In this document: in pieces, positions 23,674 through 52,624 of the stretch | Layout: each line of letters opens with the position of its first letter | How positions within the stretch are numbered: position 1 is the stretch's first letter | Position numbers and translations under genes: made by a program | Notes under the pieces: generated by a model | Database searches by the model: none | What the model was told of the DNA's origin: nothing | The model's input: only the letters and a program-made list of their open reading frames with translations | IMG/VR virus record: IMGVR_UViG_3300022902_001182 | Location: 1-56,158 of that record | Source: a virus | Length of the DNA stretch: 56,158 nt | Direction: 5' to 3' (one strand)

Positions 23674-23679
23674 CTTATA

Positions 23680-24627: not shown

Positions 24628-24628
24628 T

Positions 24629-27346: not shown

Positions 27347-27347
27347 A

Positions 27348-27755
27348 CTAATCCCAACTTATATCCCAGTCCTTAAACTCGGCAGCCAGACAATCAATCT
27401 TGTAGTCTTTTCTCCCACCGGCAATTTCTTGTATTTTATTCTTTGCTGTATTTCTAATTCCGTTGAGGCCATGAGTAAGCTCTAAGTCATTTCCCTCGCT
27501 TAGCCCCTTGCGGTAGTTTGACTCGTTGTGCCAAATGTGCAAGTTCATTTGTGATAAAACCACTATAGCGCGGATTATTTCTGAAGTGACTGGCTGGTTT
27601 GATTCGTTAAGGTGCATTTGAATGTCGTGCACGATGTCTGATATCTCACTTGCATATTCCTCTTTATGTTCTGATATAAATACCTCTTTTAGCTGGATTA
27701 TTGATAGGCGATCTACCAGTTCCGATAATGTTGGCAGATATTTTCTATTTGTCAT
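27348..27755 (-). CDS. Unknown small helical protein of the sugar operon (135 aa)
   Basis: 135 aa, mostly helical. LPTLSELVDRLSIIQLKEVFI opens it and MNLHIWHNESNYR lies in the middle. Similar ELxDRLxIxxLK openings are familiar from glycan loci of bacteria and phages as uncharacterised proteins (recollection, not a search). It overlaps the GDP-fucose synthase gene by 11 bases. No catalytic motif that I recognise. Confidence 0.7.
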   Translation of the reverse strand: MTNRKYLPTLSELVDRLSIIQLKEVFISEHKEEYASEISDIVHDIQMHLNESNQPVTSEIIRAIVVLSQMNLHIWHNESNYRKGLSEGNDLELTHGLNGIRNTAKNKIQEIAGGRKDYKIDCLAAEFKDWDISWD

Positions 27756-28680: not shown

Positions 28681-29680
28681 CTTGATTATTTAACCTTTCC
28701 CTTATATCTTTATACACTACTTTTAGTCCTTCTTTAAACGAAGTAGCTGCTTTCCAACCATCTAAGGTTTTTTCTGCCAAAGAACAATCGCACCACTGTC
28801 CCCAAATTAGAGTGTCCTTTGTCCTATCAAATTCTATCTCTATTTTTTTCCCAGAAATTTCTATTACTGCTGCGGCGATGTCGGCTATTGAAATAATTTC
28901 TTGTTTGCCAACGTTTAGAGGTCCAACTAAGGGCGTAGATTCCATTTTCTCTATCATTCTAATGGTACACTCCACGGCATCGTCTATGAAGCAATAAGAT
29001 CTTGTCTCTTCACCTGTGCCCCACACACTAAATGGAGTTTTGGGGTGCTTGATTGCTCTGTGAGAAAATACGGGGATAACACTGCCTGTATCCAGTCCAT
29101 AATCTTGTCCTGGTCCATAAATCCCGATATACCTTGCAACTGCACTCCTGAGATTTTGATGCTCTCCCATTGCATATACAATATTCTTTTCTCCAACTAA
29201 CTTTGCCATTCCATATGATAACTCGGGATTAGCTGGAAATGCCTGCTCCTCTTTTATTGCTAGCGGGTTTGGTGTTGCCTGTAACTCAAGCGGATAGACA
29301 TGAGCGCTGCTAGCATAAAAATATCTTTCTACACCAGAGGATATTACCTCGTCTAAAACATTGGCATCTATTTTTAGCATATCCCTGAACACCTCATATG
29401 GTCTTGAGGTATAGACACCAATACCGCCGACTTTTGATGCCAGGTGTACAACTATATCCATGTCGTAAAACATCCCTTTACATTCGTCGGTATTTCTGAG
29501 GTCTATATTCCTCATACTTATATTGTTGCCATCAATCTCTAAGCCACTGGTGTCACCTCTTTCTAAGTTGTCTATTATCACTACTTTTGCACCGAGTGCA
29601 GACAATGATTTGACAAGAGATTTTCCAATGAATCCACATCCCCCAGTTATACAAACTTTTTTATCTAAAAAGTAGCTCAT
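28673..29680 (-). CDS. NAD-dependent epimerase/dehydratase (335 aa)
   Basis: 335 aa extended SDR. KVCITGGCGFIGKSL is the nucleotide motif, YASSAHVYPLE the serine site, and LSYGMAKLVGEKN the catalytic Tyr/Lys. YIGIYGPGQDYG resembles GDP-mannose 3,5-epimerase and related enzymes, but the substrate is uncertain. Overlaps Fcl by 8 bases and the FkbM gene by ATGA. Confidence 0.87.
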   Translation of the reverse strand: MSYFLDKKVCITGGCGFIGKSLVKSLSALGAKVVIIDNLERGDTSGLEIDGNNISMRNIDLRNTDECKGMFYDMDIVVHLASKVGGIGVYTSRPYEVFRDMLKIDANVLDEVISSGVERYFYASSAHVYPLELQATPNPLAIKEEQAFPANPELSYGMAKLVGEKNIVYAMGEHQNLRSAVARYIGIYGPGQDYGLDTGSVIPVFSHRAIKHPKTPFSVWGTGEETRSYCFIDDAVECTIRMIEKMESTPLVGPLNVGKQEIISIADIAAAVIEISGKKIEIEFDRTKDTLIWGQWCDCSLAEKTLDGWKAATSFKEGLKVVYKDIRERLNNQDG

Positions 29681-30369
29681 TTTGCAAAGATCATCCCATA
29701 ATTTACACGTCGGTCAGGATTACACACCTCTTCCAACTCTTCTTTTAGATCGGAGAATGATATATATTTTTCTGGTTCTACTAAATAAGGGTCGCCAGTA
29801 GCGTTATATGTCATATTCTTTATATCTTCTTTATTATCAAAATATCCTATGATTCCAGCTTCAGTATATCCAATGGTTTCTAAATGATCCATACACTTAT
29901 AAAGAACCTCTATCATTTCTTCGTGCCACTCAAAACAGATTGTTCCAACCTTTTTAGTCAGCCCTGACAATACTTCATATTCATAACCCTCTACATCAAC
30001 CTTTACAAAATCAGGTGTGCCGAAGGTATTTGTCAGCTTATCCAGGGTTATAGATGGTATTTCTAGTTTTTTTGTCCAGCCAACGGAACCTGGCGATAGG
30101 TTTTTGCTACCTTTGGCGAAACGAGAGTTGCTCATAAAATCTTCTGAGGCCGTAGACACCCCCGACTGAGTAGGGTCAATATAAAATGGAACAAAATCGT
30201 CGTCTTTATTTGAAACCAACCGGTTTATAAAAACAAAATCACCTTCAAGTTGAACATTATTAAACTCTGGGTTGGCGTCTACCCCGATTACCTTACAATT
30301 CGGAAACTTCTTATATACCTCTTTGGTAAAGTCTCCTAAGTTGAAGCCAATATCAAATACTAAATCCAT
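29677..30369 (-). CDS. FkbM-family methyltransferase (230 aa)
   Basis: 230 aa. VFDIGFNLGDFTKEV and VIGVDANPEF are the SAM-binding motifs, and PDFVKVDVEGYEYEVLSGL is the FkbM signature (KxDxEGxE). Such enzymes methylate hydroxyls of sugars, often O-antigen or capsule end groups. It overlaps the epimerase gene by ATGA; a second FkbM gene lies 1 kb upstream. Confidence 0.9.
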   Translation of the reverse strand: MDLVFDIGFNLGDFTKEVYKKFPNCKVIGVDANPEFNNVQLEGDFVFINRLVSNKDDDFVPFYIDPTQSGVSTASEDFMSNSRFAKGSKNLSPGSVGWTKKLEIPSITLDKLTNTFGTPDFVKVDVEGYEYEVLSGLTKKVGTICFEWHEEMIEVLYKCMDHLETIGYTEAGIIGYFDNKEDIKNMTYNATGDPYLVEPEKYISFSDLKEELEEVCNPDRRVNYGMIFAK

Positions 30370-30371
30370 TT

Positions 30372-31364
30372 CTATTCTCCCATGCTTTGTTTGATTGGTG
30401 TTTTGTTCATTATCTTCTTAAGAATACTTCTAGTTGTATATTCTTTCACAGCCAAATGATATGCTGAGTCTACCATGCTTTGATATTTTTCTGGGTTCTT
30501 TAGGGCATCATCACAAATTTCAATAAGATCACTTTCTGTTTTGTAATATATAAAATGCTTTCCTGGCACAAACCATTCTTCTATAACATTCCATGGATCT
30601 TCTTGAACTACCATTAACATCCTAAAAAACGCTGCCTCTGATATTCTTGGCTTGAGTTGAGGTGCCCTATACATCTCTAAGTGAGAAAAGGCTTCGTTTT
30701 CTTCCCATCTATCATACTTTTTTATATTTTGGATATGTGTGTCATTTATGGGCAACCAATTATAAACAGGAACGATTCTAGTTTCTCTAAGTATTTGCCA
30801 CTTCTCGCTGTTTATTACATTTTTATCTGTTATCATACTTATGAGTTTGTCACGATCTTTTAGTGGAAAGTTTGGTGACCAATATTCTGGACCCATCGTT
30901 ACAAACTTATAATTGTACTTGGATATAGTATTTATTAGCTCCTCATGCTCGGGGCAATGTACTCCTCCATAAAATATGGCATCGTTCTTTTTTTTAAAAG
31001 ACGACCCAATATTATCCTCGTTGATGGGAAATAATACTGGCTTGAACTTGTTATCGCCCGCGATATGGTTTAACCACTTGGCAGAGTAGGGACAAATTGT
31101 ATATATATCATTAAAATAGTCCTCCTTATCTGCACTATAGTTTCCTTCTATTTCCGGCAATAAAAAAGCGCAAGGTTGCTCACCATTAAAAAATACCTTC
31201 CTATTGAAATTCTTATTTTCAAATCTGGCAAACTCATTCTTTGCAGATCCATATCCTAAAAACAATACGGTATCATCTGGATATTCTTGAGAATACTTTT
31301 CAAATCCCATGTGGTTAATAATACAATCCTTATAATTGTCTGCCCAATCAATTACTGTTTTCAT
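30372..31364 (-). CDS. Glycosyltransferase-like protein (YkvP/CgeB type C-terminus)
   Basis: 330 aa from ATG at 31364; an in-frame upstream start at 31391 would overlap the preceding gene by 23 bases. The C-terminal part (PRISEAAFFRMLMVVQ, IYYKTESDLIEICDDALKNPEKY) resembles the glycosyl-transferase group 1 domain of spore maturation-type proteins, with the conserved glutamate in the RxSEA segment. The N-terminal half is a Rossmann-like donor domain. A sugar is presumably moved from a nucleotide donor to the growing glycan; donor and acceptor are unknown. Confidence 0.78.
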   Translation of the reverse strand: MKTVIDWADNYKDCIINHMGFEKYSQEYPDDTVLFLGYGSAKNEFARFENKNFNRKVFFNGEQPCAFLLPEIEGNYSADKEDYFNDIYTICPYSAKWLNHIAGDNKFKPVLFPINEDNIGSSFKKKNDAIFYGGVHCPEHEELINTISKYNYKFVTMGPEYWSPNFPLKDRDKLISMITDKNVINSEKWQILRETRIVPVYNWLPINDTHIQNIKKYDRWEENEAFSHLEMYRAPQLKPRISEAAFFRMLMVVQEDPWNVIEEWFVPGKHFIYYKTESDLIEICDDALKNPEKYQSMVDSAYHLAVKEYTTRSILKKIMNKTPIKQSMGE

Positions 31365-31368
31365 TTTA

Positions 31369-32364
31369 TTATCTCGTCGGCATCGTGACAAACTCTAGCG
31401 GAAGTCCGCCAAGCAGCTTCTTATTATTTTTAGCTTGTGCTCTAAGTGTTTTGGATAGGCTGCCGGTTTGATCTCTGTGTGAAATTACCAAATTTTCGCC
31501 TATGAGCAAACCATTTTCTCGGTGATATCCGATGTTTTGTAAAAATTCAAGGATGTCATTTGTGGAATATCCAAATTGCTCTGTATTCTCTTGACAAAAT
31601 TCTATGATTAGATTGGGCATGTGTCGGATCAGAGTTTTTGCTGCGCCCTTGAGTATATTTAGCTCAGCGCCTTCGGTGTCTATTTTTATAGCATTGACCC
31701 AGGGGATTTGATTAGTTTCCATAAAATCATCTATTGTAATACACTCTACTTCTATTTGAAGGATATCTGAACGATCAGCTATCCTTCTCAGATCACTTCC
31801 AAAGGTTGAGAGACCCGACCATTCTGATTTGCTAGCAACATTGAGGGTCATGTTTTTCTTTTCATCCCAAAAAGCATTTTTACTAAGCTTAATATTTTCT
31901 GCCAGCCAGGGATATTCTTGTGAATTCAAAAATACATTTTCGTAGAAGGTTGCAAAAAGCTCTGTATTTGGCTCAAAACTATAACATTTCATATCCTTCT
32001 CAAATGTAGTGACAAGAGAAAAAGCGCCAGTTGAGGCACCTATATCAAAGATAATAGGATGTGGGTTTGATTTTGCTAGTTGATCTTCTTTCGCCACCTG
32101 GTGGTACATCGCTATTAATGTTGGCTCTGCTGGTATACCGGACGAAGTAGCATATTCATTGATATCAATGCCATGGTGATTTTTACAATATTCTCTATAA
32201 TTTTTCCAAACAACGTTTTTTATAGTATTGGGATCTATTCCCTGTAAGGCTGGTGCGTGAAATGATCCACCCCATAAAAAAGATAATGGTGACACATTTA
32301 TCCTATGATCGGGATGAAACATACTTGTCAAAGGAATTCTATGGGCTATCACTGTATCCTTCAT
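31369..32364 (-). CDS. FkbM-family methyltransferase (331 aa)
   Basis: 331 aa from ATG at 32364 (ATGA overlap with the fucosyltransferase; the frame also offers an earlier ATG at 32376). IIFDIGASTGAFSLVTTFE and CYSFEPNTELFATFYENV are the SAM-binding motifs, and NAIKIDTEGAELNILKGA the FkbM core. It has an extra N-terminal segment of about 100 residues ahead of the domain (WGGSFHAPALQG). Probable role is O-methylation of a sugar in the surface glycan. Confidence 0.88.
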   Translation of the reverse strand: MKDTVIAHRIPLTSMFHPDHRINVSPLSFLWGGSFHAPALQGIDPNTIKNVVWKNYREYCKNHHGIDINEYATSSGIPAEPTLIAMYHQVAKEDQLAKSNPHPIIFDIGASTGAFSLVTTFEKDMKCYSFEPNTELFATFYENVFLNSQEYPWLAENIKLSKNAFWDEKKNMTLNVASKSEWSGLSTFGSDLRRIADRSDILQIEVECITIDDFMETNQIPWVNAIKIDTEGAELNILKGAAKTLIRHMPNLIIEFCQENTEQFGYSTNDILEFLQNIGYHRENGLLIGENLVISHRDQTGSLSKTLRAQAKNNKKLLGGLPLEFVTMPTR

Positions 32365-33251
32365 TTCAATATCCAACTTTCAGGGTAAAAGCCCTCGCGA
32401 TAAGTATAATTTTCTAAATCTGGGTGATAATGTAAGGGAGCGATAACTTCCTTATTGTTGTTTTTGTTTAGATAAGCAGCCCACCACCCAAAGCTACTAA
32501 TATGTGATATTATGTTGTGGTCACAATTCATAATGGTAGAAAAATCAAGCATGGCTGTGTTCTTATCAGCTACAATATATTCTTCTCCTTCTAAATTCTT
32601 TTGGCACCATTCTATATCATTACTATTCTCATTATTTTGACTACGAGCACCGCCGGTAAAAACTAAGAATTTCACTTTCCTATTCTTAAAATTATCTTTA
32701 GCTGCTGTCAAATATCTTCCATAGAAACTGTTGTTCTGAAGTTCCCCATTAGTTCCATACATTGTTGAAAGTTTAGGGTTTGGATTAGACCAGTCGGTGT
32801 TATCACCTCGGCGTAGGTGAAGTGAGACTATCTCATATCCACTATAATCACTTTTGATCTGGCTCAGTCGTTCAGACGCCTGTTCTGTAATATACTCTTT
32901 CGGGGTAAGTTCTTTTTTTATTTGGTTCGCGAAGTTTCCAAAATAGAAAGTGCTTTGAAAAAAACCATTTATTGAAGAGTTATCTGGTATTTTAAAGAAA
33001 TTCTCATCATATTTCATGTGGTCTGGTTCATTATATAGAAATTGGAGGTTTTCAAGATCGCTTGCTGTCAAGAAATCACAACCAATATTAAAATTTTCCA
33101 GCAGACACGATTGTCCGTGCCAATCCCTTTGAGTAGGGTTGGGAATTTTTATCTCATAATTATTTTCTAAAGAAAGGGCTCTAAGAGCAGCATATTGGAA
33201 TAGCTGATTTCCGAGGCGTCCATTCTCCCCAAGTTTGTGAAATGTTATCAT
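32361..33251 (-). CDS. GT11 alpha-1,2-fucosyltransferase
   Basis: 296 aa, normal for GT11. GRLGNQLFQYAALRAL is the N-terminal signature; VSLHLRRGDNTD is the HxRRGD donor-binding motif; HNIISHISSFGWWAAYL is the third conserved block. The enzyme transfers fucose from GDP-fucose to galactose of a glycan. Its co-occurrence with fcl in one operon gives a coherent fucosylation route. Start and end overlap neighbours by a few bases. Confidence 0.93.
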   Translation of the reverse strand: MITFHKLGENGRLGNQLFQYAALRALSLENNYEIKIPNPTQRDWHGQSCLLENFNIGCDFLTASDLENLQFLYNEPDHMKYDENFFKIPDNSSINGFFQSTFYFGNFANQIKKELTPKEYITEQASERLSQIKSDYSGYEIVSLHLRRGDNTDWSNPNPKLSTMYGTNGELQNNSFYGRYLTAAKDNFKNRKVKFLVFTGGARSQNNENSNDIEWCQKNLEGEEYIVADKNTAMLDFSTIMNCDHNIISHISSFGWWAAYLNKNNNKEVIAPLHYHPDLENYTYREGFYPESWILK

Positions 33252-33859
33252 TTTTTTCTAAAAAGTTCAAACTCTGTTAGATCGCGATATGGAGGATCTT
33301 CTGGCATATCAGGCATATGTTCTGGATAGTTTTGCATAAGAGTCAACCCTCTTGCGGCTTGTTCGGGCGTCATATACATATTCCAACCTTCTTCATCTAT
33401 CATATCTTCATGGTATTGCATACCGTCAGTCCTACCTTCATAGCGTCGTGCTTTGAGCCACTTTACGGCATCGGGGTCGGAACATAATATCATTCCGCCT
33501 TTTCCTATTTTTAGATGCTTTTTGATATGGAAAGATAAGCACATAAATGTGTCAGGCATATACATTCCTGATGTCAGTCTTTTTGCTGCGTCATATATTG
33601 GGAAGGGCTTGAGTTGATAAATGCCTTGCCATGAAACGTCTTCAAATATTACTTTTCCTCCTGCCTGAGTTATGGACTGCGGGGGAGATAAATAGGTTCT
33701 CTTCGGAATCGTAATTTCCTTGCCCTTGACATCAAGCCACTTACATGCTAGAAAAATAGCGTTGGTGCAGCTATTGACCGAAACTGCATAAGGTGCTCCG
33801 GTATAATGGGCGACCTCTTCCTCAAACATTTGGACAATTTTATATGGATTATGAAGCAT
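33248..33859 (-). CDS. Short DegT/DnrJ/EryC1-type aminotransferase (203 aa)
   Basis: 203 aa from ATG at 33859, sharing one base with the upstream stop. AVSVNSCTNAIFLACKW and TYLSPPQSITQAGGKVIFEDV are the N-terminal PLP-fold segments, and LSFHIKKHLKIGKGGMILCSD is the lysine-containing site. The family is usually about 370 aa, so the C-terminal small domain is reduced or missing; either the protein is a trimmed form or it has lost activity. It would make an amino sugar from a keto-sugar nucleotide. Neighbouring acetyltransferase gene (33859-34254) makes an N-acylated amino sugar plausible. Confidence 0.78.
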   Translation of the reverse strand: MLHNPYKIVQMFEEEVAHYTGAPYAVSVNSCTNAIFLACKWLDVKGKEITIPKRTYLSPPQSITQAGGKVIFEDVSWQGIYQLKPFPIYDAAKRLTSGMYMPDTFMCLSFHIKKHLKIGKGGMILCSDPDAVKWLKARRYEGRTDGMQYHEDMIDEEGWNMYMTPEQAARGLTLMQNYPEHMPDMPEDPPYRDLTEFELFRKK

Positions 33860-34254
33860 CAATCTTTCTCCAAAATATAATATTTCTTTTTGAAGCCACA
33901 TTTCTCAAATAGAGCAATGCTAGCAGGATTATCAAGTTTGATTTTTGCTATAGAATCTGGCATTATTTTTATTATCTCATTTATCATAAAAGTTCCAATG
34001 CCATACCCCTGGAATTGGGGATGAGTCGCGACTCGGATATCCTTGTTTATAATACCAACATATCCTGCTGGTTCATTATCGCACAAACAAACGTAATAGT
34101 TAACACCATATTTTTGCATATACTGGAGGTGTTCTTTTTTGGTTATATTATCCTGTTGTATAAAACCTTGTTTTACCTGTTTGTTATTGCGTAAGTCTCT
34201 TATAAAATCCCAGTATTCTTTAGAGTTTTTTATGAGGGCTAAACTACCACTCAT
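33859..34254 (-). CDS. GNAT-family acetyltransferase (131 aa)
   Basis: 131 aa. VCLCDNEPAGYVGI, then RVATHPQFQGYGIGTFMI with the acetyl-CoA loop (Q/R-x-x-G-x-G), and ALFEKCGFKKKYY at the end identify a GNAT fold. Next to an aminotransferase it probably N-acetylates an amino sugar, as in WecD/PseH-like pairs. Overlaps the aminotransferase by one base and the upstream gene by about 10 bases. Confidence 0.85.
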   Translation of the reverse strand: MSGSLALIKNSKEYWDFIRDLRNNKQVKQGFIQQDNITKKEHLQYMQKYGVNYYVCLCDNEPAGYVGIINKDIRVATHPQFQGYGIGTFMINEIIKIMPDSIAKIKLDNPASIALFEKCGFKKKYYILEKD

Positions 34255-35035
34255 CTACTTGATTTCCCCAATGACTGCTACTCTTCATCCAATAACTTGT
34301 AAGATATCCTCTTGTAAACTTCCAGCCCTCTAAATCAAGATATGGGTTTAGGCTACTACCAATATCCAGAAAGGTATTATTCTGATTTTCTTTATAACAT
34401 TCGTGAATAACGAAGTTGCTTAGGCTTGCAGCACTACAAAGTATCAAGTGATTTTCTATATTATTATCTGCAATATACTTTTTAACTTCTTCCGCTGTAT
34501 CATAGTTGTTGATCATGCAGTTACTGCCGATTCTAAACTCTTTCTTTATTTCAAATGGAAGTCCTGCCAAATTTGCAGCCTCGTTGACAACATATATAAT
34601 TTCTTTATTTTTGAATAGCGGGACGATTTCCTCAACGTATCTCGGATAATTACTATTAATAAGTACGTTTGCAAAGGTCAAACTATCTTCATCCCCTGAG
34701 CCGTGTAAGTTTATCTGCCAGTTGAAGTTTTCTTCCCCCACATCAGTTTTTGTACAAACGCCCTTGAAATAATTCTTCTCCCTAAACTGGAAGCTCTCTA
34801 TCAATTTTTCTCTGTGGAATTGATGCTTATCCGGAAGAAACTCTTTCTGTTCTTCTTTTGTATATATATTATTTCCAACTCTATCTCCTGTTACAAAATA
34901 ACTAGGAGCCAAGACAACTGTCTTGTTCTGCATAATAAACATCTCACCATCCGAATATCTTGCAAATGCGAAATTCTCACCGGTGGTTAGCATATCTTTG
35001 AACTTGTTAAATTCTTCTTTGAAATCTTTTGTCAT
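34244..35035 (-). CDS. GT-D type glycosyltransferase (DUF1792-like)
   Basis: 263 aa from ATG at 35035, which overlaps the upstream stop as ATGA; an in-frame ATG at 35062 is less likely. ENFAFARYSDGEMFIM resembles the RxxDGE donor motif of the GT-D fold described for serine-rich protein glycosylation. YFKGVCTKTD and ILCSAASLSNFVIHE fit the same fold. Assignment is from motif only; substrate unknown. Confidence 0.7.
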   Translation of the reverse strand: MTKDFKEEFNKFKDMLTTGENFAFARYSDGEMFIMQNKTVVLAPSYFVTGDRVGNNIYTKEEQKEFLPDKHQFHREKLIESFQFREKNYFKGVCTKTDVGEENFNWQINLHGSGDEDSLTFANVLINSNYPRYVEEIVPLFKNKEIIYVVNEAANLAGLPFEIKKEFRIGSNCMINNYDTAEEVKKYIADNNIENHLILCSAASLSNFVIHECYKENQNNTFLDIGSSLNPYLDLEGWKFTRGYLTSYWMKSSSHWGNQVDEW

Positions 35036-36651
35036 TTTGATAATCCTTCTACTGTTTTCCATCCATTTTTAATAGCGTTTTGTATACACATATCTCGTTC
35101 CTGGAAAAACTGCTGGTGTGATACTTGTTGATTATTAGAGGTCGCCTTTGAATCTATCCCAAGTTCGTTGCCCCTGGTTGATCCGTGTAACTCTTTATCG
35201 TTTGATGGGTGAGGAGGGCAAAAGGTATTTATGCCACCATATTTCTGGGCCAAATAAGAAAATTGAATGTCTTCCCCGTTATCCCAGGTGAATGGTTTCT
35301 CTCTCCATAAAAATTGCAACCAGTCCCGTTTGAAGAACCATGCATGACCAACTAAATCTACCCGAGTTCTATCTTCGTTCTGAGTTGGCCAGCCGCAACG
35401 TGCATGCTTCATATAATAATCCTCGCTCTTGAGTATTATTCCTGCCGAGCCTTGTATTCCCTCTTCCTGTCCCATACTATCTAAACAATTTTCAAACCAT
35501 TTAGAGCCAGGGATAGTGTCGTCATCAAAGATTGCTACATACTCTGTGTCTGCCAGTAAGGCTGCGGCAAATCTGCCATAAAACTTCCAGTTATAGTCGT
35601 TGCTAAATACACGGTCAACATCTAGCTGGTGATGATCAAAATCTTGGTTGTCCTCGTGCTTGTTTATCCATAGCCATATTTCTTTAGGCTGGATTGTTTG
35701 GCTTCGGATTGCCTCTATTTGTGCTTTGAGGTTGTGTGGTCTTCTGTAAGAGTTCAAAATCACAGTAATATTATTATCTGAGAAGCTTGATTCTTTTATT
35801 TCTTTTTGCCCTAAAAACGCATCCGTGAATTTCTTTGGAGTGGATTTTCTGGCGTCTTCCAATACTTCCATTATTTGGGTGGGGTTGCCACTAAACCAGT
35901 CTTCGCTGATAACGCCTAGCATCTTATTCGTAATTATTTCGCAGCCAGCCAATTTTGCCTCTACTGTGACCCTTGATAATGTTTCTAATACTTTTGGGAA
36001 AAAGACGAAATATGTGTATTTGGTAAGGAGCTTATAAAAATCCAGAGATGACGGTGCCTCTAATAAATCATACGGAATGTTATTATCATTGCAATACTTT
36101 TCCGACATTTGTTGATTTTTTATAACATTGTCAGATTTCATGATCGCGGCTCTGCCATTTTTTTCTGGTATTACAATATTCTTTATATCAGATAAAAATT
36201 CAGTTGTCCACAAGCTTGTTCCAAGGTTGATTGTATTAGCTAATGGAATATTCTTCTTTAGAACCTCGGCGTGGATTTTACTTTGACAAAAAACAGCTAA
36301 GGAATTTTCATAAAATTCTTGGTTAATAATCAAATGCCTTGGTGCAGTAAAATCAGGATAAGATGCCGGGTTTCTATTGACCACATATTTGTGATCGTGC
36401 TCATATAAAACATAGTTACAGCGGTATAGAGCCTCTTTAGGTCCTCCGCCTAATAGCATAAAGTTGCTGACTATAAATCTACTACCCTTATTTTCTAAAA
36501 TGTATTCTTTAGTTACGTCTGCTGAATATTTCCTTATTACAGTATTGCCTTCCTGGGAAAGAAGAGTAAGTAACTCTTCATTTGCCATTTCAGCGCCGCC
36601 GAAGAAATCACCCAAAAAATAATCAGCTATAAAAATGTATTCTTGACTCAT
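35032..36651 (-). CDS. Two-domain glycosyltransferase (GT4-like plus GT2-like)
   Basis: 539 aa. The N-terminal half (FIADYFLGDFFGGAEMANEELL, YEHDHKYVVNR, TVEAKLAGCEIITNKMLG) has the look of a glycosyltransferase family 4 or related donor domain. The C-terminal half (TVILNSYRRPHNLKAQIEAIRSQ, YVAIFDDDTIPGSKWFENC) is a GT2-type domain with the DDD metal site. Two different linkages could be made by one protein. Overlaps both neighbours by ATGA-type junctions. Confidence 0.82.
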   Translation of the reverse strand: MSQEYIFIADYFLGDFFGGAEMANEELLTLLSQEGNTVIRKYSADVTKEYILENKGSRFIVSNFMLLGGGPKEALYRCNYVLYEHDHKYVVNRNPASYPDFTAPRHLIINQEFYENSLAVFCQSKIHAEVLKKNIPLANTINLGTSLWTTEFLSDIKNIVIPEKNGRAAIMKSDNVIKNQQMSEKYCNDNNIPYDLLEAPSSLDFYKLLTKYTYFVFFPKVLETLSRVTVEAKLAGCEIITNKMLGVISEDWFSGNPTQIMEVLEDARKSTPKKFTDAFLGQKEIKESSFSDNNITVILNSYRRPHNLKAQIEAIRSQTIQPKEIWLWINKHEDNQDFDHHQLDVDRVFSNDYNWKFYGRFAAALLADTEYVAIFDDDTIPGSKWFENCLDSMGQEEGIQGSAGIILKSEDYYMKHARCGWPTQNEDRTRVDLVGHAWFFKRDWLQFLWREKPFTWDNGEDIQFSYLAQKYGGINTFCPPHPSNDKELHGSTRGNELGIDSKATSNNQQVSHQQFFQERDMCIQNAIKNGWKTVEGLSK

Positions 36652-37910
36652 ATTTTTTGTACTGTTTCCATGTTTTCCGCCCAGCGGGTAGTTTCATTTT
36701 CAATTCCAGACCAGATAGCATCAGACATTGCCTTATGTTGATTTTCTTCTGAGAATGTTTCTAGGATGTGGGTTTGTAATCTATTCGCCGTTGTCCTCTT
36801 CGCTTTAAGTTCAGTAAAGACACTTCTCATGGCTCTTTTGAATTTATCTTCCTTTGGACGACACCAGTTCATGTCTTTTGTAATGATTCCTGGCATCAAG
36901 GCAATTTCTGGTACAGGTACAATATCTACCGCCACCTTTTCATAGCAAGTTTCTCTCTTTATTTTACCTGCTTTGTTTTTGGTTGTGGTAGACAAAAAGT
37001 CTACATGACCAGACCATGCTGGAGCAATCACTGGCAGTCCGCTATAAGCAGATTCAAAGATAGGAAGTCCGAAGCCCTCACCGTGGGTAGCGGTGAGATA
37101 TGCTGACATTTGCGGATGAACATAGAGTCCATGCAATTCTTCATCAGACATTGCGCCATGAATATGATATATTTTACACTTGCGAGGACCTAGTTGTTCT
37201 ATGAAACCCTTTAGTAATCTCTCAGACTTATAACGATCAGGTATTGAGTTATTTTCACCATGAGCCTTCAAGAGTAAACCAACGTTCTCTTCTTCTCTAA
37301 ACTCTTCAACAAACCATTTAAGCGCATCTTCTATATTTTTTCTTGGTGCCATTTGGGTAATGGATAAAAAGTTGAAGTCTGTTGGTAGTTTGATTTTTTC
37401 AGATAAATCTACGGGAACAATATTTCTAACTGGGTAAGTTACAACCTCTACTGGTTTTTGACATCCCACCAGCGAAAGAACCTCGTCAGTATGCTCATTT
37501 TTGATATCATATTTTGTCTTAAGAAAAGTATCGGCAGTATGGGCTGAAGTTACAATTATCTTATCCATTGAGTTCGCTCGGCGGAGCCAGTCAAGTGGTA
37601 CCCGATCAGTTTCTACTCCAGCAGTGATACCAATATTAATCTTTGCCAATCCCTTCCATTCGGTGGGGACGGTTACCTGAATGGATACATCAAATTCTCC
37701 TTGATATGACGCCGCCTTTTGGATAAGAAAATTATAATACTTTCTTTTAAAGTTATCCTCATGAAGCCAACTGCTTCTTCCCCAGTTAAGCGGGCTAACA
37801 TATACATCATAAAGATCTGGACGGCTAGATAAAGCATCTATTACAAATCTTGAATGAACACCATATCCTGATTTTGATAGGACTGGCGCTACTACTAATA
37901 CTTTCTTCAT
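36648..37910 (-). CDS. Glycosyltransferase family 4 protein (420 aa)
   Basis: 420 aa from ATG at 37910 (ATGA overlap with 37907-39172); an earlier in-frame ATG at 37922 lies inside the upstream gene. KVLVVAPVLSKSGYGVHSRFV is the N-terminal donor domain with a Gly loop, and HPQMSAYLTATHGEGFGLPIFESAYSGLPVIA is the GT4 EGFGLPxxE catalytic block. The donor is unknown. One of several glycosyltransferases in the operon. Confidence 0.9.
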   Translation of the reverse strand: MKKVLVVAPVLSKSGYGVHSRFVIDALSSRPDLYDVYVSPLNWGRSSWLHEDNFKRKYYNFLIQKAASYQGEFDVSIQVTVPTEWKGLAKINIGITAGVETDRVPLDWLRRANSMDKIIVTSAHTADTFLKTKYDIKNEHTDEVLSLVGCQKPVEVVTYPVRNIVPVDLSEKIKLPTDFNFLSITQMAPRKNIEDALKWFVEEFREEENVGLLLKAHGENNSIPDRYKSERLLKGFIEQLGPRKCKIYHIHGAMSDEELHGLYVHPQMSAYLTATHGEGFGLPIFESAYSGLPVIAPAWSGHVDFLSTTTKNKAGKIKRETCYEKVAVDIVPVPEIALMPGIITKDMNWCRPKEDKFKRAMRSVFTELKAKRTTANRLQTHILETFSEENQHKAMSDAIWSGIENETTRWAENMETVQKI

Positions 37911-39172
37911 ACTGTTATACACTCCCAGCTATTATATTTTTTTCTATTTTCCCAAGATCCATGCTCATCGTGAATTTTATCCATTAGAGTAATCCAATTA
38001 TTTTTGAAATCGGAGAAATTATAGTTTTTCATAATGTGTTCTCTGCCGCGAAGTCCTAAAGCTGTTCTATCTTCCATGGTCATATTATATATTTTTTCCA
38101 AGGCTGCGATAAAGTCATCTTTATTTATTCTATCTTCAAAAATGAAGGGAACTTGTTGTGATCCGATTATTGCCTTGGATGATGGTTCAATCCCTACCCC
38201 AAAGAAATCTTCGCCATCCGTAACCTGTTCTTGAAGACCTCCGGTCATGCTGACTATAATTGGAGTACCACAAGATAATGATTCTAAAGTGGCAAGTCCA
38301 AATCCTTCTGCATCTGAGATATTGACTGTACAATCTGCCATCTTGTAAAGAATGGATAGTTGGTCTTGTTGAAGTTTTTCCGTAGAGAATAGAACCTCTC
38401 CGTTATTCAAACCAAGCTCTTCTATGATATAGTCCAATGGCTGACCGTGGGGGTCCCTTACATCAGTATGCATCAATAAACATGCCTTATCTTTCCCTAC
38501 CTTATCAAGGAATTCCTTAAACCAAAAGATAAGCGTACCACTCTGCTTTCTGCGAGCATTTCTATTGTTCCAGAAAAAGATTACCTTATCGGTAACGCCC
38601 ATGTTGGATTCTCTTACATTTTTTACAAGTGCCCGTTCAGATTCAGTTGATGGAGGCTTGAATATGTCAGTGTTGACTGCATGTGGAATATAATATTCTT
38701 CTGCTTCTGGAGCCACAGTCTGAACGATGTCGCTAGTTACCTTTGAAATTGTAGCTATAACATCAGTTGAATCATACCATTTTTTATTGAACGCCGGATA
38801 TGGTGTGTTATCCCACACATGATAGTACACCATTGGGACAAGTGGACGGATTTCGTCCTCCATATTCCAAAGCCATTCATAAAATCTAGGATCAGTCATA
38901 AAATACAGAATGTCTGGTTTATGGTGGTGAATCATCTGGCGGAGCATATCTGGATTTCCGTATCCATCAACAGGATAAACTATCCAGTCCTCTCCATATT
39001 TTTCGGTTTTGACTGGATTATAGTTAGGGTGTGTAATCGCACCCCCTAATGATACCACCTGGTACCTTCCTGTGTCAAGTAGTGTTTCTAAAATATATTT
39101 TGTTTGTGTGCCTACACCAGATGGTAAAAATGGGTGGTCACTCAGAGTTAGGATTTTGATTTTTTTATTTGT
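37907..39172 (-). CDS. Glycosyltransferase family 4 protein, GTG start (421 aa)
   Basis: 421 aa. An earlier in-frame ATG at 39286 would overlap the nuclease gene by nearly 100 bases; GTG at 39172 has GAGG seven bases upstream and lies 16 bases past the nuclease stop, so it is preferred. ILTLSDHPFLPSGVGTQTKYI is the N-terminal motif; MADCTVNISDAEGFGLATLESLSCGTPIIV is the GT4 EGFGLxxLE block. The first sugar-cassette gene in transcription order. Its job may be early in glycan assembly, which is inference. Confidence 0.88.
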   Translation of the reverse strand, partial: TNKKIKILTLSDHPFLPSGVGTQTKYILETLLDTGRYQVVSLGGAITHPNYNPVKTEKYGEDWIVYPVDGYGNPDMLRQMIHHHKPDILYFMTDPRFYEWLWNMEDEIRPLVPMVYYHVWDNTPYPAFNKKWYDSTDVIATISKVTSDIVQTVAPEAEEYYIPHAVNTDIFKPPSTESERALVKNVRESNMGVTDKVIFFWNNRNARRKQSGTLIFWFKEFLDKVGKDKACLLMHTDVRDPHGQPLDYIIEELGLNNGEVLFSTEKLQQDQLSILYKMADCTVNISDAEGFGLATLESLSCGTPIIVSMTGGLQEQVTDGEDFFGVGIEPSSKAIIGSQQVPFIFEDRINKDDFIAALEKIYNMTMEDRTALGLRGREHIMKNYNFSDFKNNWITLMDKIHDEHGSWENRKKYNSWECITV

Positions 39173-39188
39173 CACTTTACGCCCTCGT

Positions 39189-40028
39189 TTATGTGCAATG
39201 TTTTGATTTGTAAAATTCACAAGTACCAAATCTGTCCTTACAACTAACGCAGGCAGATCTGTTTTTTGTATAGTTCTTTTTTTCAATGTTACTCAACGCT
39301 TTGGTTAGAAGAGCTAAGGCATCGGTTGTTCTCTTTTTGGCAGCGGTCACCCTTACAAATTCTGCCTTCTTTCCTGCCTTGGCAGTTCGCTTGAGCAAGA
39401 CAAAATGACATTCAATATCTTTAGGATCCACATCATACTTTTTGGACCAAAAGTGCTTATAAAACACTAGCTGATATGATAAAATCTTATCATTCTTTTT
39501 TTGAGGTTGCCAGCCCCACGAGCAGGTCTTCCAATCAATCAGATGAACCTTCTTGTCCTTTTTACTCATGATTACAAGATCAATAAATCCTTTGAACTTT
39601 TTGTCCACATCTGTAAACTCAGTTATTGGTTCATAAAGTTGTTCTTCTGCTTTGAGAACTTCCCAGTCCTCTCCTAGTTTGCCGAATTTCTCAGCCAAAC
39701 AAGTATATAAATCAGGAATAATCTCTATTCCCTTCTCTAACCATTCTTTCAGATTGAAGTTCTTTTTTGCCTCAGCTTGCATGTCTTGGGGCAGAGCTTT
39801 TAGTTCAGCCAAAAATTGCTCTTTAACTAGTGATTTGATTTTTCCAGAAGATCTATAATCCTCTGGCTTTGATAAGGTATATTCACACACCGTATGAATT
39901 GCTTTTCCAAATGCGGTGTGGATATTTCCATCAAATTGAGTTATTTTATCAATATAAGTCAACTTGTGATACTGTGGGCAAATATACCAGTTCTTCCACT
40001 CAGAATATGAAATGTGTTTTCCGACCAA
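39189..40028 (-). CDS. PD-(D/E)xK nuclease, RecB/Cas4-type with cysteine cluster (279 aa)
   Basis: 279 aa. SYSEWKNWYICPQYHKLTYIDK is the N-terminal segment with one cysteine, and FGKAIHTVCEYT the RecB-like helix. FKGFIDLVIMSKKDKKVHLIDWKTCSWG gives the D...DxK core. The C-terminus has three cysteines (CVSCKDRFGTCEFYKSKHC), so with the first cysteine it fits the Fe-S-type AddB/Cas4 nucleases. It probably trims DNA ends in recombination or packaging. Adjacent genes are the metallopeptidase upstream and the sugar cassette downstream. Confidence 0.88.
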   Translation of the reverse strand: MVGKHISYSEWKNWYICPQYHKLTYIDKITQFDGNIHTAFGKAIHTVCEYTLSKPEDYRSSGKIKSLVKEQFLAELKALPQDMQAEAKKNFNLKEWLEKGIEIIPDLYTCLAEKFGKLGEDWEVLKAEEQLYEPITEFTDVDKKFKGFIDLVIMSKKDKKVHLIDWKTCSWGWQPQKKNDKILSYQLVFYKHFWSKKYDVDPKDIECHFVLLKRTAKAGKKAEFVRVTAAKKRTTDALALLTKALSNIEKKNYTKNRSACVSCKDRFGTCEFYKSKHCT

Positions 40029-42110: not shown

Positions 42111-42451
42111 TGGTGGAGGTGGACGGTATCGAACCGTCGTCTTGAAAGTGTCCATAAACTAGTCATTCACAGGGTTAGTATGCGCCTTTATCGTCGTAGC
42201 AACGTTGACTATCTCATCCTTCTTTATTTAGCCTCGGAGTTTATGAGCAATGCCGAACGAGGGTTCTATTCAAAAAGCAACTTTCTGTTTATTGGCAGTC
42301 ACCGCCTCAAGAGTGGTTAGGTTATTACGCCGCCATCTCTAGGTTGAAATTGTCATTTGCAATTATCTTTTTAAGCGTTTTTAGTGAGCCACGCTTCCCT
42401 CACCCCTGCACTAGTTTATATCTTCCTCCCAATCGAATCCATTTCACCCCC
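42111..42451 (-). ncRNA. ssrA: tmRNA (transfer-messenger RNA), one-piece, encoded CCA
   Basis: The 5' end reads GGGGGTGAAATGGATTCGA, matching bacterial tmRNA; the 3' end reads GACGGTTCGATACCGTC then CACCTCC and ACCA. The acceptor stem is 7 bp (GGGGGTG with CACCTCC) with a G3-U70 wobble, the AlaRS identity pair, and discriminator A. The reading frame runs GCA AAT GAC ... GCG GCG TAA TAA, encoding tag ANDNFNLEMAA, at about 42310-42365, with GATAATT just before the resume codon. Length 341 nt is normal. tmRNA frees stalled ribosomes with SmpB; no smpB gene is seen here, so host SmpB would be used. Confidence 0.95.
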
Positions 42452-47297: not shown

Positions 47298-47325
47298 ATT
47301 ATATCATAGAATATTCATATGCCAA
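47298..47325 (-). promoter_or_regulatory. Near-consensus sigma70 promoter upstream of 47249
   Basis: On the minus strand TTGGCA (47320-47325), 16-base spacer, and perfect TATAAT (47298-47303). It overlaps the last codons of the serine protease gene and points at the 65-aa and structural-type genes downstream, so these can be made by host polymerase independently of the late motif. Confidence 0.75.
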
Positions 47326-48208
47326 GTAAATTCCCGATTTTAAATGCCATTTTTTCGGACCAAGACTCAACAATTTTCTTGCCAGCATCAGGAACATTAT
47401 TCTTTTGCCACATTTTTATTTCAGCCATGGCTATTGAATTCTTCAAAAAAACCTTGATAGCAACAAGCGGGGATGATAACCCAACGTTCTCAATTTTTGG
47501 ATATCCTGCAAATATAACCCCTATTAACTCATTTTTGGAGTTAATAATAGGAGATCCACTCGACCCTGGTTTTGTAGGGATTGTATATACTGAATATCCC
47601 CTATCATGATATCCTGAGAATACTCCCTGGAATAAGAGAACTGTGTCTCTCCAAAAGAGTCCATGTGGCGCTGCCATATTTTTTACCATATCCCCAGGTT
47701 CCGGGGGTAACTTTGATATTTTTAGTACTGGCGGGGCTTTATAAATATCACGAACCTTCATAAGACATAAATCAAATCTATCATTTGTTTTTACAACTTC
47801 ACCACGATGAGGAATTCCATTCAAACCCACGACAGTAAAGGTAGATTTTTTCTTTTTAATAATAATGTCACCAACCCGCCGCACAGATGGTATATTATTT
47901 TTACACGAATGTCCAGCAGTCAGAACATAATATATACTTTCAGATATTTCACTACGAAATATATAAGCCCCGGAAGAAACATACTTCATAATGGCTCCTT
48001 GACATTCTGACATACCTGTTTCTTTATTGAGACCACAACCCTCTAGCTCAACTTCTTGCCTGACCTGTGTAAACGCCTCACGAGGGAATTTGTTTATAAT
48101 TTTCGGAGTGCTTATTATATCAGATGTGGCACATCCGTTTACACAACTAATAAAAAACAACAGTGAAACCGTAAGAAACTTGACGTATATTGGATGTTTT
48201 TCATTCAT
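47315..48208 (-). CDS. Trypsin-like serine protease, predicted lipoprotein (297 aa)
   Basis: 297 aa. The N-terminus is a lipoprotein signal peptide: hydrophobic run to SCVNGC, with Cys26 the likely lipidated residue. Catalytic triad is visible: H100 in LTAGHSC, D146 in NDRFDLCLM, S217 in KPGSSGSPI. This is the chymotrypsin/V8 fold (S1C-like). It should sit in the outer or inner membrane facing the periplasm and cut proteins there. It is transcribed on the minus strand, divergent from the plus-strand genes at 48288. A phage-encoded lipoprotein protease may alter host receptors or resident proteins, which is inference. Confidence 0.88.
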   Translation of the reverse strand: MNEKHPIYVKFLTVSLLFFISCVNGCATSDIISTPKIINKFPREAFTQVRQEVELEGCGLNKETGMSECQGAIMKYVSSGAYIFRSEISESIYYVLTAGHSCKNNIPSVRRVGDIIIKKKKSTFTVVGLNGIPHRGEVVKTNDRFDLCLMKVRDIYKAPPVLKISKLPPEPGDMVKNMAAPHGLFWRDTVLLFQGVFSGYHDRGYSVYTIPTKPGSSGSPIINSKNELIGVIFAGYPKIENVGLSSPLVAIKVFLKNSIAMAEIKMWQKNNVPDAGKKIVESWSEKMAFKIGNLLGI

Positions 48209-48235
48209 AGTAAAGTAACTATGTTTTTAAAAGAC

Positions 48236-48243
48236 TATTTATC
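48236..48243 (-). promoter_or_regulatory. Late-promoter-like motif GATAAATA upstream of the protease
   Basis: Minus-strand TATGGATAAATAGTC, the same 12-base block (TATGGATAAATA) as at 46087. It lies about 30 bases before the protease ATG at 48208. Direct repeats CATAGTAAA flank it at 48206 and 48244 on plus. Suggests late expression under the gp55-like factor. Confidence 0.45.
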
Positions 48244-48287
48244 CATAGTAAATCTATTCAAGTTTTATAAAAAGATAGGAAAGACAA

Positions 48288-48515
48288 ATGATAAGCAATA
48301 TTTTGATGGCAGGAATCTTAATATTTTCCGGACAAGAACTAACAAAATCAAGTATTTGGCAAAAAATAGAAGGAACTTGGTCTTATATTGGAAAAGTCCA
48401 AGAAAAGCCACAAGTTCTTTTTTGGCTAGAAAAGAATATAAAAAGTAAGAATCAAGAGATATTTACTAAAGAGATAAAGAAGATGCCATTTCTAACTTTA
48501 TCTCCAAAGGGATAG
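48288..48515 (+). CDS. Small exported or membrane protein of unknown role (75 aa)
   Basis: 75 aa. MISNILMAGILIFSGQ is a short hydrophobic N-terminus, then a charged helical region (WLEKNIKSKNQEIFTKEIKK). AGGA sits about 8 bases before the ATG. One of only a few plus-strand genes in the window, first in a three-gene run. No family recognised. Confidence 0.6.
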   Translation: MISNILMAGILIFSGQELTKSSIWQKIEGTWSYIGKVQEKPQVLFWLEKNIKSKNQEIFTKEIKKMPFLTLSPKG

Positions 48516-48527
48516 GTCAAGTATATA

Positions 48528-48550
48528 TAGCCTCTCCCATAGGGGGGCTA
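48528..48550 (+). promoter_or_regulatory. Hairpin masking the ribosome site of the 155-aa gene
   Basis: TAGCCTCTC (48528-48536) can pair with GGGGGGCTA (48542-48550), nine pairs including two G-U, leaving loop CCATA. The Shine-Dalgarno run AGGGGGG lies in the 3' arm and the TTG start is at 48553. If it forms, translation of the gene would be held back unless ribosomes from the upstream gene or a helicase open it. Confidence 0.55.
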
Positions 48551-48552
48551 CA

Positions 48553-49020
48553 TTGAAAATATCAAAGATAAGATTTGTCCTACTGTGTTTATTTACACTT
48601 AGTTGTTTAACTGCGTTTTATTGGCACACAAAATATCAGACCCAGTTCCAAATAATAATCCCACAAAAAACAACTTATTATACTCCGGGTCAACAAGACA
48701 ACTGTAAGTGGGTTGTACACATAAGTAGAGAGGTCACAACAAGAGAAGGTGATATGTCACCGGCACAAATAGGAATCCCAGAGGTTGCCGGCAATGGCTA
48801 TATTTCTGGAGTGGTGCAGAGTGGTCCAGGTAAATCTATCATAATGGCATTTAACCTCCCAAAAACTGTTTCTAAGCTACCCCCGATTATTATGATTGCC
48901 AGCTATAATAATAAAACGCTGCCCATAAAAACTATTCGTTTTCGTGTTATGAATAGCACACTAATGTCAATGTCGGTGTATTCCTCATATGAAAAATGTA
49001 TTGAGGCAACTATGAAATGA
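48553..49020 (+). CDS. Exported or anchored protein, TTG start (155 aa)
   Basis: 155 aa. KISKIRFVLLCLFTLSCLTAF is a signal peptide or membrane anchor with a Cys, then an extracytoplasmic domain rich in Tyr, Thr, Pro and Gly with strand-like segments (WVVHISREVTTREGD, GYISGVVQSGPGKSIIMAF). The TTG start has a strong AGGGGGG ribosome site five bases upstream. The stop overlaps the next start as ATGA at 49017-49020, coupling it to the VWA lipoprotein. No family recognised. Confidence 0.72.
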   Translation: MKISKIRFVLLCLFTLSCLTAFYWHTKYQTQFQIIIPQKTTYYTPGQQDNCKWVVHISREVTTREGDMSPAQIGIPEVAGNGYISGVVQSGPGKSIIMAFNLPKTVSKLPPIIMIASYNNKTLPIKTIRFRVMNSTLMSMSVYSSYEKCIEATMK

Positions 49021-50234
49021 AATACTTTCTTCTGTTGTTGCCGGCAATATCAGCGTGTGATGATACGATGTTAATACGCCATGACTGCCCCCTCGGTCAA
49101 ACCAGGCAATGCTCCTGGAATCCAGAAAGTACACAACTCCCGTCCGGACTATGCAAATATGGAACACAAATATGCAGTTCTAAAGGCTGGTCAGAATGTG
49201 TTGGTGCGGTAGGACCAACAGAAGAAGTCTGTGATGGCTATGACAATGATTGCGATATGTTAATAGATGAATCCTATCCAGAAGAACATCAATTATGTGG
49301 TTTTGTTGAGGGTGCTAATTATGGCTCCGGAGTTTGTATCCCTGGAGTTATGACTTGCGATAACTCTGGCACTCTATATTGTTCTGGACATATAGGACCA
49401 TCAACAGAGATCTGTGATGGTATTGATAATAATTGTGATGGAACAGTAGATGAAGGAATCGCTAACTCAACAGCAATTGTTTGTTATGAAGGTCCAGAAG
49501 GAACAATGGCGATTGGAGAGTGTAGGGCCGGCGTAAAATATTGCAGTGAAGGTATCTTTGATGGTCCATGCGACGGACAGGTATTGCCCACGGCAGAACG
49601 CTGTGATGATCTAGATAATGACTGTGACGGCGAAGTTGACGAAGGTCTAGATACTCGTGGAGTAGACATTGTATTTGTCCTTGACATTTCTAGCTCGTTT
49701 GATGACGAGATAGACTCTATGATTGCCGGCATCGCTCCCCTTTTAGACGACCCTTTGACGAGCAGTTTTCGCTTTGGACTAGTTGTAGTAGGTCTAGCTA
49801 ACCGTCGCGACGTGCCACCCCAAGAACGGCACTCAACTCTCATCACTGATTTTGTTCCGGCTGATGAATTCTTGTCCTTTCTTGAGAGTACACGATCAAT
49901 GAGAAGTGGTGGCATTGAGCCAACTCTTGATGCTATGATATGGACCATGAATGGAAGCTTCCAATTTTCTTGGCGACAAGATGCGCAAAAAGTAATAATC
50001 ACGATGACCGATGAAGAGGCACAAACAGTTATCAATACTCCCGGTGCTGATGTTCACGCTATGGCGGTCAATGGTGCCTTTGAACTATTCGTCTTTGCAT
50101 TGCCAATACATCATAATGGCTTTTTATCTTCTGTTGGCGGTGAGCAAAGAAGGCTATTTTCACCTTCTGTAAACTCCACAACCGTCTTCCAGCAAATCAG
50201 ACAGATATTTGATGATTTGTGCGTTAGAGAATAA
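49017..50234 (+). CDS. Lipoprotein with MopE-type metal-binding repeats and VWA domain (405 aa)
   Basis: 405 aa. Signal peptide FLLLLPAISAC gives lipidated Cys14. Three Cys/Asp-rich repeats follow, at about 72-86, 133-147 and 196-210, each of the form CDGxDNxCDGxxDEG, matching the MopE-type metal-binding motif. Residues 216 onward form a von Willebrand A domain with the MIDAS motif DISSS (D223, S225, S227) and a later TMTDEE. Such proteins are surface adhesins or metal-dependent ligands and are typical of some Deltaproteobacteria. In a phage it may be host-derived cargo. It ends one base before a convergent gene at 50235. Confidence 0.88.
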   Translation: MKYFLLLLPAISACDDTMLIRHDCPLGQTRQCSWNPESTQLPSGLCKYGTQICSSKGWSECVGAVGPTEEVCDGYDNDCDMLIDESYPEEHQLCGFVEGANYGSGVCIPGVMTCDNSGTLYCSGHIGPSTEICDGIDNNCDGTVDEGIANSTAIVCYEGPEGTMAIGECRAGVKYCSEGIFDGPCDGQVLPTAERCDDLDNDCDGEVDEGLDTRGVDIVFVLDISSSFDDEIDSMIAGIAPLLDDPLTSSFRFGLVVVGLANRRDVPPQERHSTLITDFVPADEFLSFLESTRSMRSGGIEPTLDAMIWTMNGSFQFSWRQDAQKVIITMTDEEAQTVINTPGADVHAMAVNGAFELFVFALPIHHNGFLSSVGGEQRRLFSPSVNSTTVFQQIRQIFDDLCVRE

Positions 50235-51184: not shown

Positions 51185-52624
51185 CTAAACTTGATTTACC
51201 TGAAGTATACCACCGCTCACCTGGAACTTGAACTCTTGCAGAAGACCGCCTGAGTCCGTACCCATGATCTGGATATGCGGAATATCGTTGATTTGAGCCT
51301 CCGCGGCGCTGTCGCCGACGGCGATTGGTGTCATATTATTCATAATGGTACCATAAGCTCTAAGCACTGTACCTTGACCAGATCCAGTCATCAGGGTTCT
51401 GTTAGTACGATATGAAGAGCCAGTTATATCACCGGTCATATTAATACTGCCTACGGAGGTAACATTTCCTGACCCATCAACCACAAAATCATCACTAGCG
51501 ACCGAAAGAGTCGCGACCGACGCCTGACCAGTAGCAACAATCGTGCTTGCACCAGCAATCGCACCAGCATCAGTAATACCACCAGAGTTTAGATCCAAGC
51601 TTGTAAAATCACCAATCTTGGCCCTAACATCACCACTATAGTGACCGTTAACAAAGAATACATCGCCAGAACCTGTCAGGCTTCGAAGACCACTTGCGAT
51701 GTCAGCATTTGCATCAAGAACAAGAGCCTTGGCAGCAGCACCAGCACCATTAGTAATGCCATCAATCTTAAGAAGATCAGCAGCGCCAACAGTAGTAGAC
51801 CCAACAGACAAGTTAGTAGAAGCAATCAAATCAACGGCTCTAACATCGTTAGAGTAGTGACCGTTAGCAAAGAATACATCGCCAGAACCTGTCAGGCTTC
51901 GAAGACCACTTGCGATGTCAGCATTTGCATCAAGAACAAGAGCCTTGGCAGCAGCACCAGCACCATTAGTAATGCCATCAATCTTAAGAAGATCAGCAGC
52001 GCCAACAGTAGTAGACCCAACAGACAAGTTAGTAGAAGCAATCAAATCAACGGCTCTAACATCGTTAGAGTAGTGACCGTTAGCAAAGAATACATCGCCA
52101 GAACCTGTCAGGCTTCGAAGACCACTTGCGATGTCAGCATTTGCATCAAGAACAAGAGCCTTGGCAGCAGCACCAGCACCATTAGTAATGCCATCAATCT
52201 TAGCAATATCAGCTTCAAGAACTTCAGTAGTGCCAACTGTTAGAGCACCACCAGAAGCGGTCAGGCTCACAGCCGATACACCACCTACATCTAATGTCAA
52301 TGTATTAGAAGCAAAGACAAGACCAGAACTAGCACCGAACTCACCGCTATCATTATACTGTACTTGTGTAGTACTACCAGCAGCATCATTAGACGCATCC
52401 GAGGCAGCACGGAGATAATTCAGTGCTTGAATAACCGAACCCGAATTTCCCAAAAACGAAGCACTAAGAACGGCGCTTGTATCAACCATTGCCGGTGCAC
52501 TATCTGTTGCTACAACGGGAAGACTGACGAAAGCGCCAGAATTTGGATCATATATCAATCCACCAAGTTGTTCATTATTAACAATATAAGGTAGTGCATT
52601 ACCACCTGATACATAAGTTCTCAT
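51185..52624 (-). CDS. Fibre-like structural protein with 72-aa tandem repeats (479 aa)
   Basis: 479 aa. Middle carries a 72-residue unit (VGAADLLKIDGITNGAGAAA ... GDVFFANGHYSNDVRAVDLI) present twice fully and in part a third time, nearly identical in DNA. Flanks are Ser/Gly/Ala/Thr-rich strands typical of trimeric tail fibres or head-tail fibres. The N-terminus SGGNALPYIVNNEQLGGLIYD may attach to the virion. GGAGG precedes the ATG. C-terminus EFKFQVSGGILQVNQV lacks a recognisable chaperone. Fibre assignment is by composition and repeat structure. Confidence 0.78.
   Translation of the reverse strand: MRTYVSGGNALPYIVNNEQLGGLIYDPNSGAFVSLPVVATDSAPAMVDTSAVLSASFLGNSGSVIQALNYLRAASDASNDAAGSTTQVQYNDSGEFGASSGLVFASNTLTLDVGGVSAVSLTASGGALTVGTTEVLEADIAKIDGITNGAGAAAKALVLDANADIASGLRSLTGSGDVFFANGHYSNDVRAVDLIASTNLSVGSTTVGAADLLKIDGITNGAGAAAKALVLDANADIASGLRSLTGSGDVFFANGHYSNDVRAVDLIASTNLSVGSTTVGAADLLKIDGITNGAGAAAKALVLDANADIASGLRSLTGSGDVFFVNGHYSGDVRAKIGDFTSLDLNSGGITDAGAIAGASTIVATGQASVATLSVASDDFVVDGSGNVTSVGSINMTGDITGSSYRTNRTLMTGSGQGTVLRAYGTIMNNMTPIAVGDSAAEAQINDIPHIQIMGTDSGGLLQEFKFQVSGGILQVNQV
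51641..52202 (-). repeat. Tandem 216-bp repeat within the fibre gene (about 2.6 copies)
   Basis: The block GTGACCGTTA... begins at 51641, 51857 and 52073, exactly 216 bases (72 codons) apart. Copies two and three match almost base for base until about 52200, where the third diverges. The first copy differs at a few sites near its start. Near-identity in DNA as well as protein points to recent duplication or gene conversion. Confidence 0.9.

Follow-up and report, generated by a model that had tools for sequence, protein, structure and literature searches.

The window analysed here, the whole 56,158-nt stretch of IMG/VR virus record IMGVR_UViG_3300022902_001182 (positions 1 to 56,158), comes from a T4-superfamily phage and has nearly all of its genes on the minus strand. 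It carries an AT-rich, strand-switched island in which a minus-strand gene for a predicted lipoprotein serine protease (PROT) faces three plus-strand genes: a small protein with a hydrophobic N-terminus (smallA), a membrane-anchored protein (B155) and a lipoprotein that combines MopE repeats with a VWA domain (VWA). The features of the window are collected in Table 1.

Table 1. Features of the cassette and other features of the window (window coordinates).
Position	Strand	Feature	Details
47315-48208	-	PROT	Lipoprotein trypsin-fold serine protease, 297 aa; triad H100, D146, S217
48209-48287		Divergent intergenic promoter region	ACTATTTAT at 48234-48242, in the coding orientation of the plus-strand operon
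48288-48515	+	smallA	Small exported protein, 75 aa; hydrophobic N-terminus; conserved W-K-G-W ... KQ ... KMPF core
48513-48545		End of smallA and frame beyond	smallA ends nine residues before its relatives (shortened C-terminus in this phage); two more TAG codons in the frame beyond
48553-49020	+	B155	Membrane-anchored protein, 155 aa; TTG start; helix 5-31, then predicted beta-barrel; invariant Cys51 and Cys149
49017-50234	+	VWA	Lipoprotein, 405 aa; three MopE repeats, then integrin-like VWA domain with complete MIDAS
49017-49020	+	ATGA	Overlap of B155 and VWA genes
18457 and 48235		CTATTTAT	Putative promoter element
22681-39286	-	Surface-sugar cluster	Four proteins matching nucleotide-sugar epimerase profiles, two glycosyltransferases, a methyltransferase
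42111-42451	-	tmRNA	Tag ANDNFNLEMAA; 109.6 bits against the Rfam tmRNA family
51185-52624	-	Repeat protein	479 aa; about three near-identical tandem blocks of roughly 70 aa

The island had been picked out in a preliminary description made from the sequence alone, and that observation was confirmed in all its elements: the three plus-strand genes, the facing lipoprotein protease, the metal-binding repeats and MIDAS of the VWA protein, and the ATGA coupling. The first plus-strand gene, which had not been delimited, is best placed at the 75-aa frame, because that frame, and not the overlapping 84-aa one, is conserved in relatives. An exact 4-nt overlap between the B155 and VWA genes is found in 38 of 50 contigs. 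Outside the island, the tmRNA is unusual cargo for a phage, the sugar cluster suggests that the phage may also remodel host surface glycans, and 500-aa genes related to the repeat protein stand in three copies in L003 and L004 (L numbers denote viral loci in our set).

The protease matched Trypsin_2 with E = 3e-12 (47.9 bits against a curated cut-off of 27.6) and carries a lipobox-type signal. Its His/Asp/Ser triad was invariant in 31 aligned sequences, and its nearest solved relatives are HtrA/Spl proteases. The core of smallA was identified from an alignment of 33 sequences. The two cysteines of B155 were invariant in 34 aligned sequences and would fit an oxidising compartment. The B155 barrel, predicted to be periplasmic, was modelled with a pLDDT of 87.7, but its best structural matches were weak and came from mixed families (Foldseek E at best 0.24, VIA Z 8.2 or less, in a comparison that included avidin/lipocalin-like, or calycin, barrels).

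The VWA protein matched MopE in three stretches (2e-10; 41.1 bits against a cut-off of 27). The match to VWA was weaker (7.8e-4; 20.1 bits, below the Pfam cut-off of 23.8), but the predicted fold is clearly VWA, aligning with I domains and other VWA domains at Z 17–19 (up to 18.9) over 170–180 residues, and Foldseek ranked CMG2 and integrin beta chains first. The MIDAS consists of D223-x-S225-x-S227 with E301 and D332, all invariant in 34 aligned sequences. E301 occupies the position where alpha-I domains have Thr, as in beta-I domains. Most VWA proteins also show a lipobox, and the exceptions look like start-codon choices.

To determine how widespread the cassette is, viral contigs were searched with the VWA protein, the B155 alignment and the protease alignment, which returned 28, 22 and 50 loci, respectively. 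Profile scanning of every locus showed that each protease locus and each B155 locus carries all four genes, apart from one protease locus cut at a contig end. Collapsed to distinct contigs (the window included), 50 of 50 have the four genes in the same order and orientation, far beyond chance. The protease and B155 genes were never found alone. Since pattern-based scans can miss relatives, 50 is a lower bound, although some contigs are near-duplicates (about 33–37 distinct sequences per protein). Between cassettes, protein identity falls to about 30% for the protease, 23–25% for B155, 13–20% for smallA and 43% for VWA. VWA is the only member found without the others: 12 more distant loci carry a VWA/MopE-type lipoprotein without the cassette. 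Other phages (L018, L019, L022, L024, L026, L028), gp23-bearing where tested, carry large solitary MopE-repeat lipoproteins of up to 814 aa without the protease core.

At least three gene neighbourhoods surround the same cassette. Neighbourhood I is window-like (33 contigs, with PhoH and cytidylyltransferase genes nearby), although one subgroup (3300032086_003969 type) has different immediate neighbours; II and III share some neighbouring families. Long contigs of I and III, and several contigs with a solitary VWA-type protein, encode a gp23-type capsid protein and a tail sheath, so these are T4-superfamily phages. Their nearest cultured capsids are 47% identical or less. In lineage II, the VWA gene is followed by a second trypsin-type lipoprotein, while an exported SLT transglycosylase lies on the other side of the protease, which also has small membrane proteins next to it. 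In lineage III, VWA is followed by an RseP-like M50 site-2 protease (L080:7079-7885, +; 194.5 bits), with a DnaJ homologue beyond it. In a separate, unrelated phage type (L023, L025), a VWA/MopE lipoprotein lies about 3.5 kb from another trypsin-type lipoprotein. Many small proteins of these T4-like phages (L028, L080, L085, L283 and others) begin with a near-identical MKITKxxLRxIIxEE peptide, perhaps a shared targeting tag. A capsid-led scan intended to measure how "core" the cassette is returned mostly short contigs and yielded no usable estimate.

No cellular copy was found, either in a B155 pattern scan of an 84,980-species genome collection or in a profile search of 379 genomes from one phylum, the latter run without a positive control. 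Bacterial matches of the VWA protein run mostly through the MopE part; a profile meant to cover the VWA domain alone, with a column cut that had not been validated, found nothing in those loci. Among the cultured phages of the INPHARED collection, there was no match for the protease, B155 or VWA. Pfam, PHROGs, NCBIfam and PADLOC recognised nothing beyond generic domains: PHROGs gave only weak generic protease hits, NCBIfam nothing for three of the four proteins, and PADLOC, which was searched for known anti-phage defence systems, only weak partial protease-domain matches and nothing for the other three. No description of such a set was found in the literature searched.

We next compared the histories of the four genes. 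For 25 non-redundant lineage I contigs, the identity matrices of the protease, smallA and B155 correlate at 0.92, above their correlation with backbone genes (0.42–0.55), whereas VWA correlates with them at only 0.09, 0.08 and 0.20, respectively. A sliding window placed the break at the end of the VWA signal region. Tree tests agreed: the protease and B155 trees differ little (deltaL 41–53; rejected by AU, run with only 1000 replicates, but not by SH), while protease and B155 data reject the VWA tree (deltaL 459 and 268) and VWA data reject theirs (deltaL 1357 and 1220). When three divergent contigs were dropped, the contrast weakened but remained (0.78–0.80 against 0.29–0.46). So the protease, smallA and B155 behave as one unit, and the VWA body is traded separately. 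Co-evolution of three adjacent genes may partly be linkage, and the VWA break may reflect homologous recombination within a well-conserved gene; linkage could contribute to the first half of that statement, but VWA overlaps B155 by 4 nt and still breaks away.

All four genes are under purifying selection (pN/pS 0.08–0.30), which, together with the 50 of 50 conservation, rules out chance ORFs. Within lineage I, the MopE region of the VWA protein is the more conserved (entropy 0.61) and the VWA domain the less (0.94), with hypervariable loops at 261–272 and 341–353 around the invariant MIDAS. This is what a diversifying recognition domain would look like, but it does not show positive selection (VWA pN/pS 0.09–0.30).

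A search of the divergent region for a canonical TATAAATA late promoter was uninformative; the enriched element turned out to be CTATTTAT. In a 178-kb relative, this motif lies just upstream of gene starts in coding orientation in 12 of 18 occurrences, against 8.5% for shuffled 8-mers, including the tail-sheath gene and the gene just before the capsid gene. It looks like a genome-wide promoter element of this phage lineage, in coding orientation 20–70 nt before genes. ACTATTTAT or its variant ACTAATTAT lies upstream of smallA in 29 of 33 lineage I contigs, including the window, from which we infer late expression in lineage I. The motif is absent in backgrounds II and III.

The interpretation offered in the preliminary description was partly supported. 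It held that the genes may form an envelope system, for superinfection exclusion, receptor shaving or host attachment, carried as accessory cargo, and that the ATGA coupling pointed to a functional unit. A functional unit of exported proteins is supported by the linkage, the co-evolution of three members and the purifying selection, and the VWA protein has adhesin features. Unrelated neighbours in related genomes, named beforehand as the outcome that would count against the proposal, were not what we found: the four genes stay together. Accessory cargo, in the sense of loosely assembled genes, was not supported, since the set is fixed across phage backgrounds. The unit is better described as a three-gene core plus a swappable recognition subunit, as the VWA gene alone is exchanged between phages. 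The three proposed roles cannot be told apart from sequence.

Our preferred explanation, which remains tentative, is that this is an envelope module made late in infection. What the analysis itself establishes is the architecture: four genes always linked in one order, a protease with an intact triad and an export signal, a protein with a membrane helix, a small protein with a hydrophobic N-terminus, a lipoprotein with metal-binding repeats and an intact MIDAS VWA domain, and the differing histories of the core and VWA. The rest is inferred from sequence alone, including proteolysis, location in the envelope, metal-dependent ligand binding and late expression. In this view, the first three proteins form a protease complex in the envelope, with the beta-barrel protein as anchor or activator and the small protein as partner or inhibitor, and the VWA lipoprotein binds a variable target through its MIDAS face and brings it to the protease. 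The recurrence of VWA/MopE and trypsin-type lipoproteins near each other in the unrelated phage type, and the second trypsin-type lipoprotein of lineage II, are in line with this. The most likely purpose would be removal of surface proteins of the infected cell (receptor destruction), which would exclude rival phages and stop progeny sticking to the spent host and its debris, although nothing as yet shows proteolysis of receptors. It is possible, though less likely than not, that this is a previously undescribed phage system in which a secreted protease complex is aimed at host surface proteins by an interchangeable integrin-like lipoprotein, with the recognition gene traded among T4-like phages as host surfaces change.

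Among the alternatives, a lysis or egress module survives best, but is unlikely. The protease and anchored proteins would dismantle outer-membrane or envelope linkages at the end of infection, doing the job of spanins, and B155 (inner membrane, N-in) and the overlapping lipoprotein gene resemble an i-/o-spanin pair in layout. The probable late promoter and the SLT lipoprotein and small membrane proteins of lineage II fit this view. However, the SLT gene is not near the cassette in the other backgrounds, the B155 model is a beta-barrel rather than a coiled coil, and a variable, swappable VWA domain is not needed for lysis. Somewhat less likely is an adhesion module, in which the VWA lipoprotein makes the infected cell stick to particles or other cells, helping spread in dilute water, and the protease matures or releases the adhesin. 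The MIDAS and MopE repeats, the solitary VWA/MopE lipoproteins of other phages and the MIDAS lipoprotein adhesins that act at the predator–prey contact in Bdellovibrio (PMC11003981) speak for it, but it does not explain why the protease, smallA and B155 are obligatory, and VWA does not co-evolve with the protease. A takeover of envelope quality control, in which HtrA-like proteolysis blunts the host's periplasmic stress response during phage production, is more doubtful still: the protease has weak sequence similarity to HtrA/DegP and lineage III has the RseP-like protease next to VWA, but the protease has no PDZ domain and a MIDAS adhesin has no obvious role. Unrelated recent insertions of cargo genes, suggested by the AT-rich, strand-switched island in this window, are contradicted by the shared order and 50 of 50 conservation across phages diverged to about 15–30% identity in smallA and B155, and by the low pN/pS.

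Large uncultured phages are full of unannotated envelope proteins. Here, four of them form an obligate unit of about 3 kb with readable catalytic and metal sites, which makes a phage surface-remodelling system directly testable. If the targeted-proteolysis reading is right, it adds a receptor-destroying activity built into the envelope of the infected bacterium, with a recognition part that evolves by exchange. Even if the role is lysis or adhesion, the linkage and co-evolution data define a phage module that current family libraries do not hold.

The individual folds are known; their obligate combination in a phage is not, and its function is still unproven. Phage superinfection-exclusion lipoproteins, such as Ltp of Streptococcus phages (PMC3952083), are likewise phage-encoded surface or envelope lipoproteins, as are Llp and Cor of coliphages, but those are single small proteins without a protease or MIDAS. 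The MIDAS-family lipoprotein adhesins of bacteria, such as Bdellovibrio Bd0875 (PMC11003981), share a lipobox plus a VWA/MIDAS domain in an envelope protein; CglB of Myxococcus belongs to the same family. The protein described here is phage-encoded, has three MopE repeats and, in the cassette, always occurs with a protease and two other exported proteins, and homology to these adhesins has not been shown beyond the VWA fold. Complement factor B/C2, in which VWA is joined to a trypsin-type domain, follows a similar logic of a MIDAS VWA module paired with a trypsin-fold protease, but here the two are separate polypeptides in bacterial viruses, without evidence of common origin. Two-component spanins of the Rz/Rz1 type share the layout of an inner-membrane protein gene overlapping a lipoprotein gene, but the present cassette has a predicted beta-barrel and a VWA domain in place of the coiled coil and short lipopeptide, with a protease attached.
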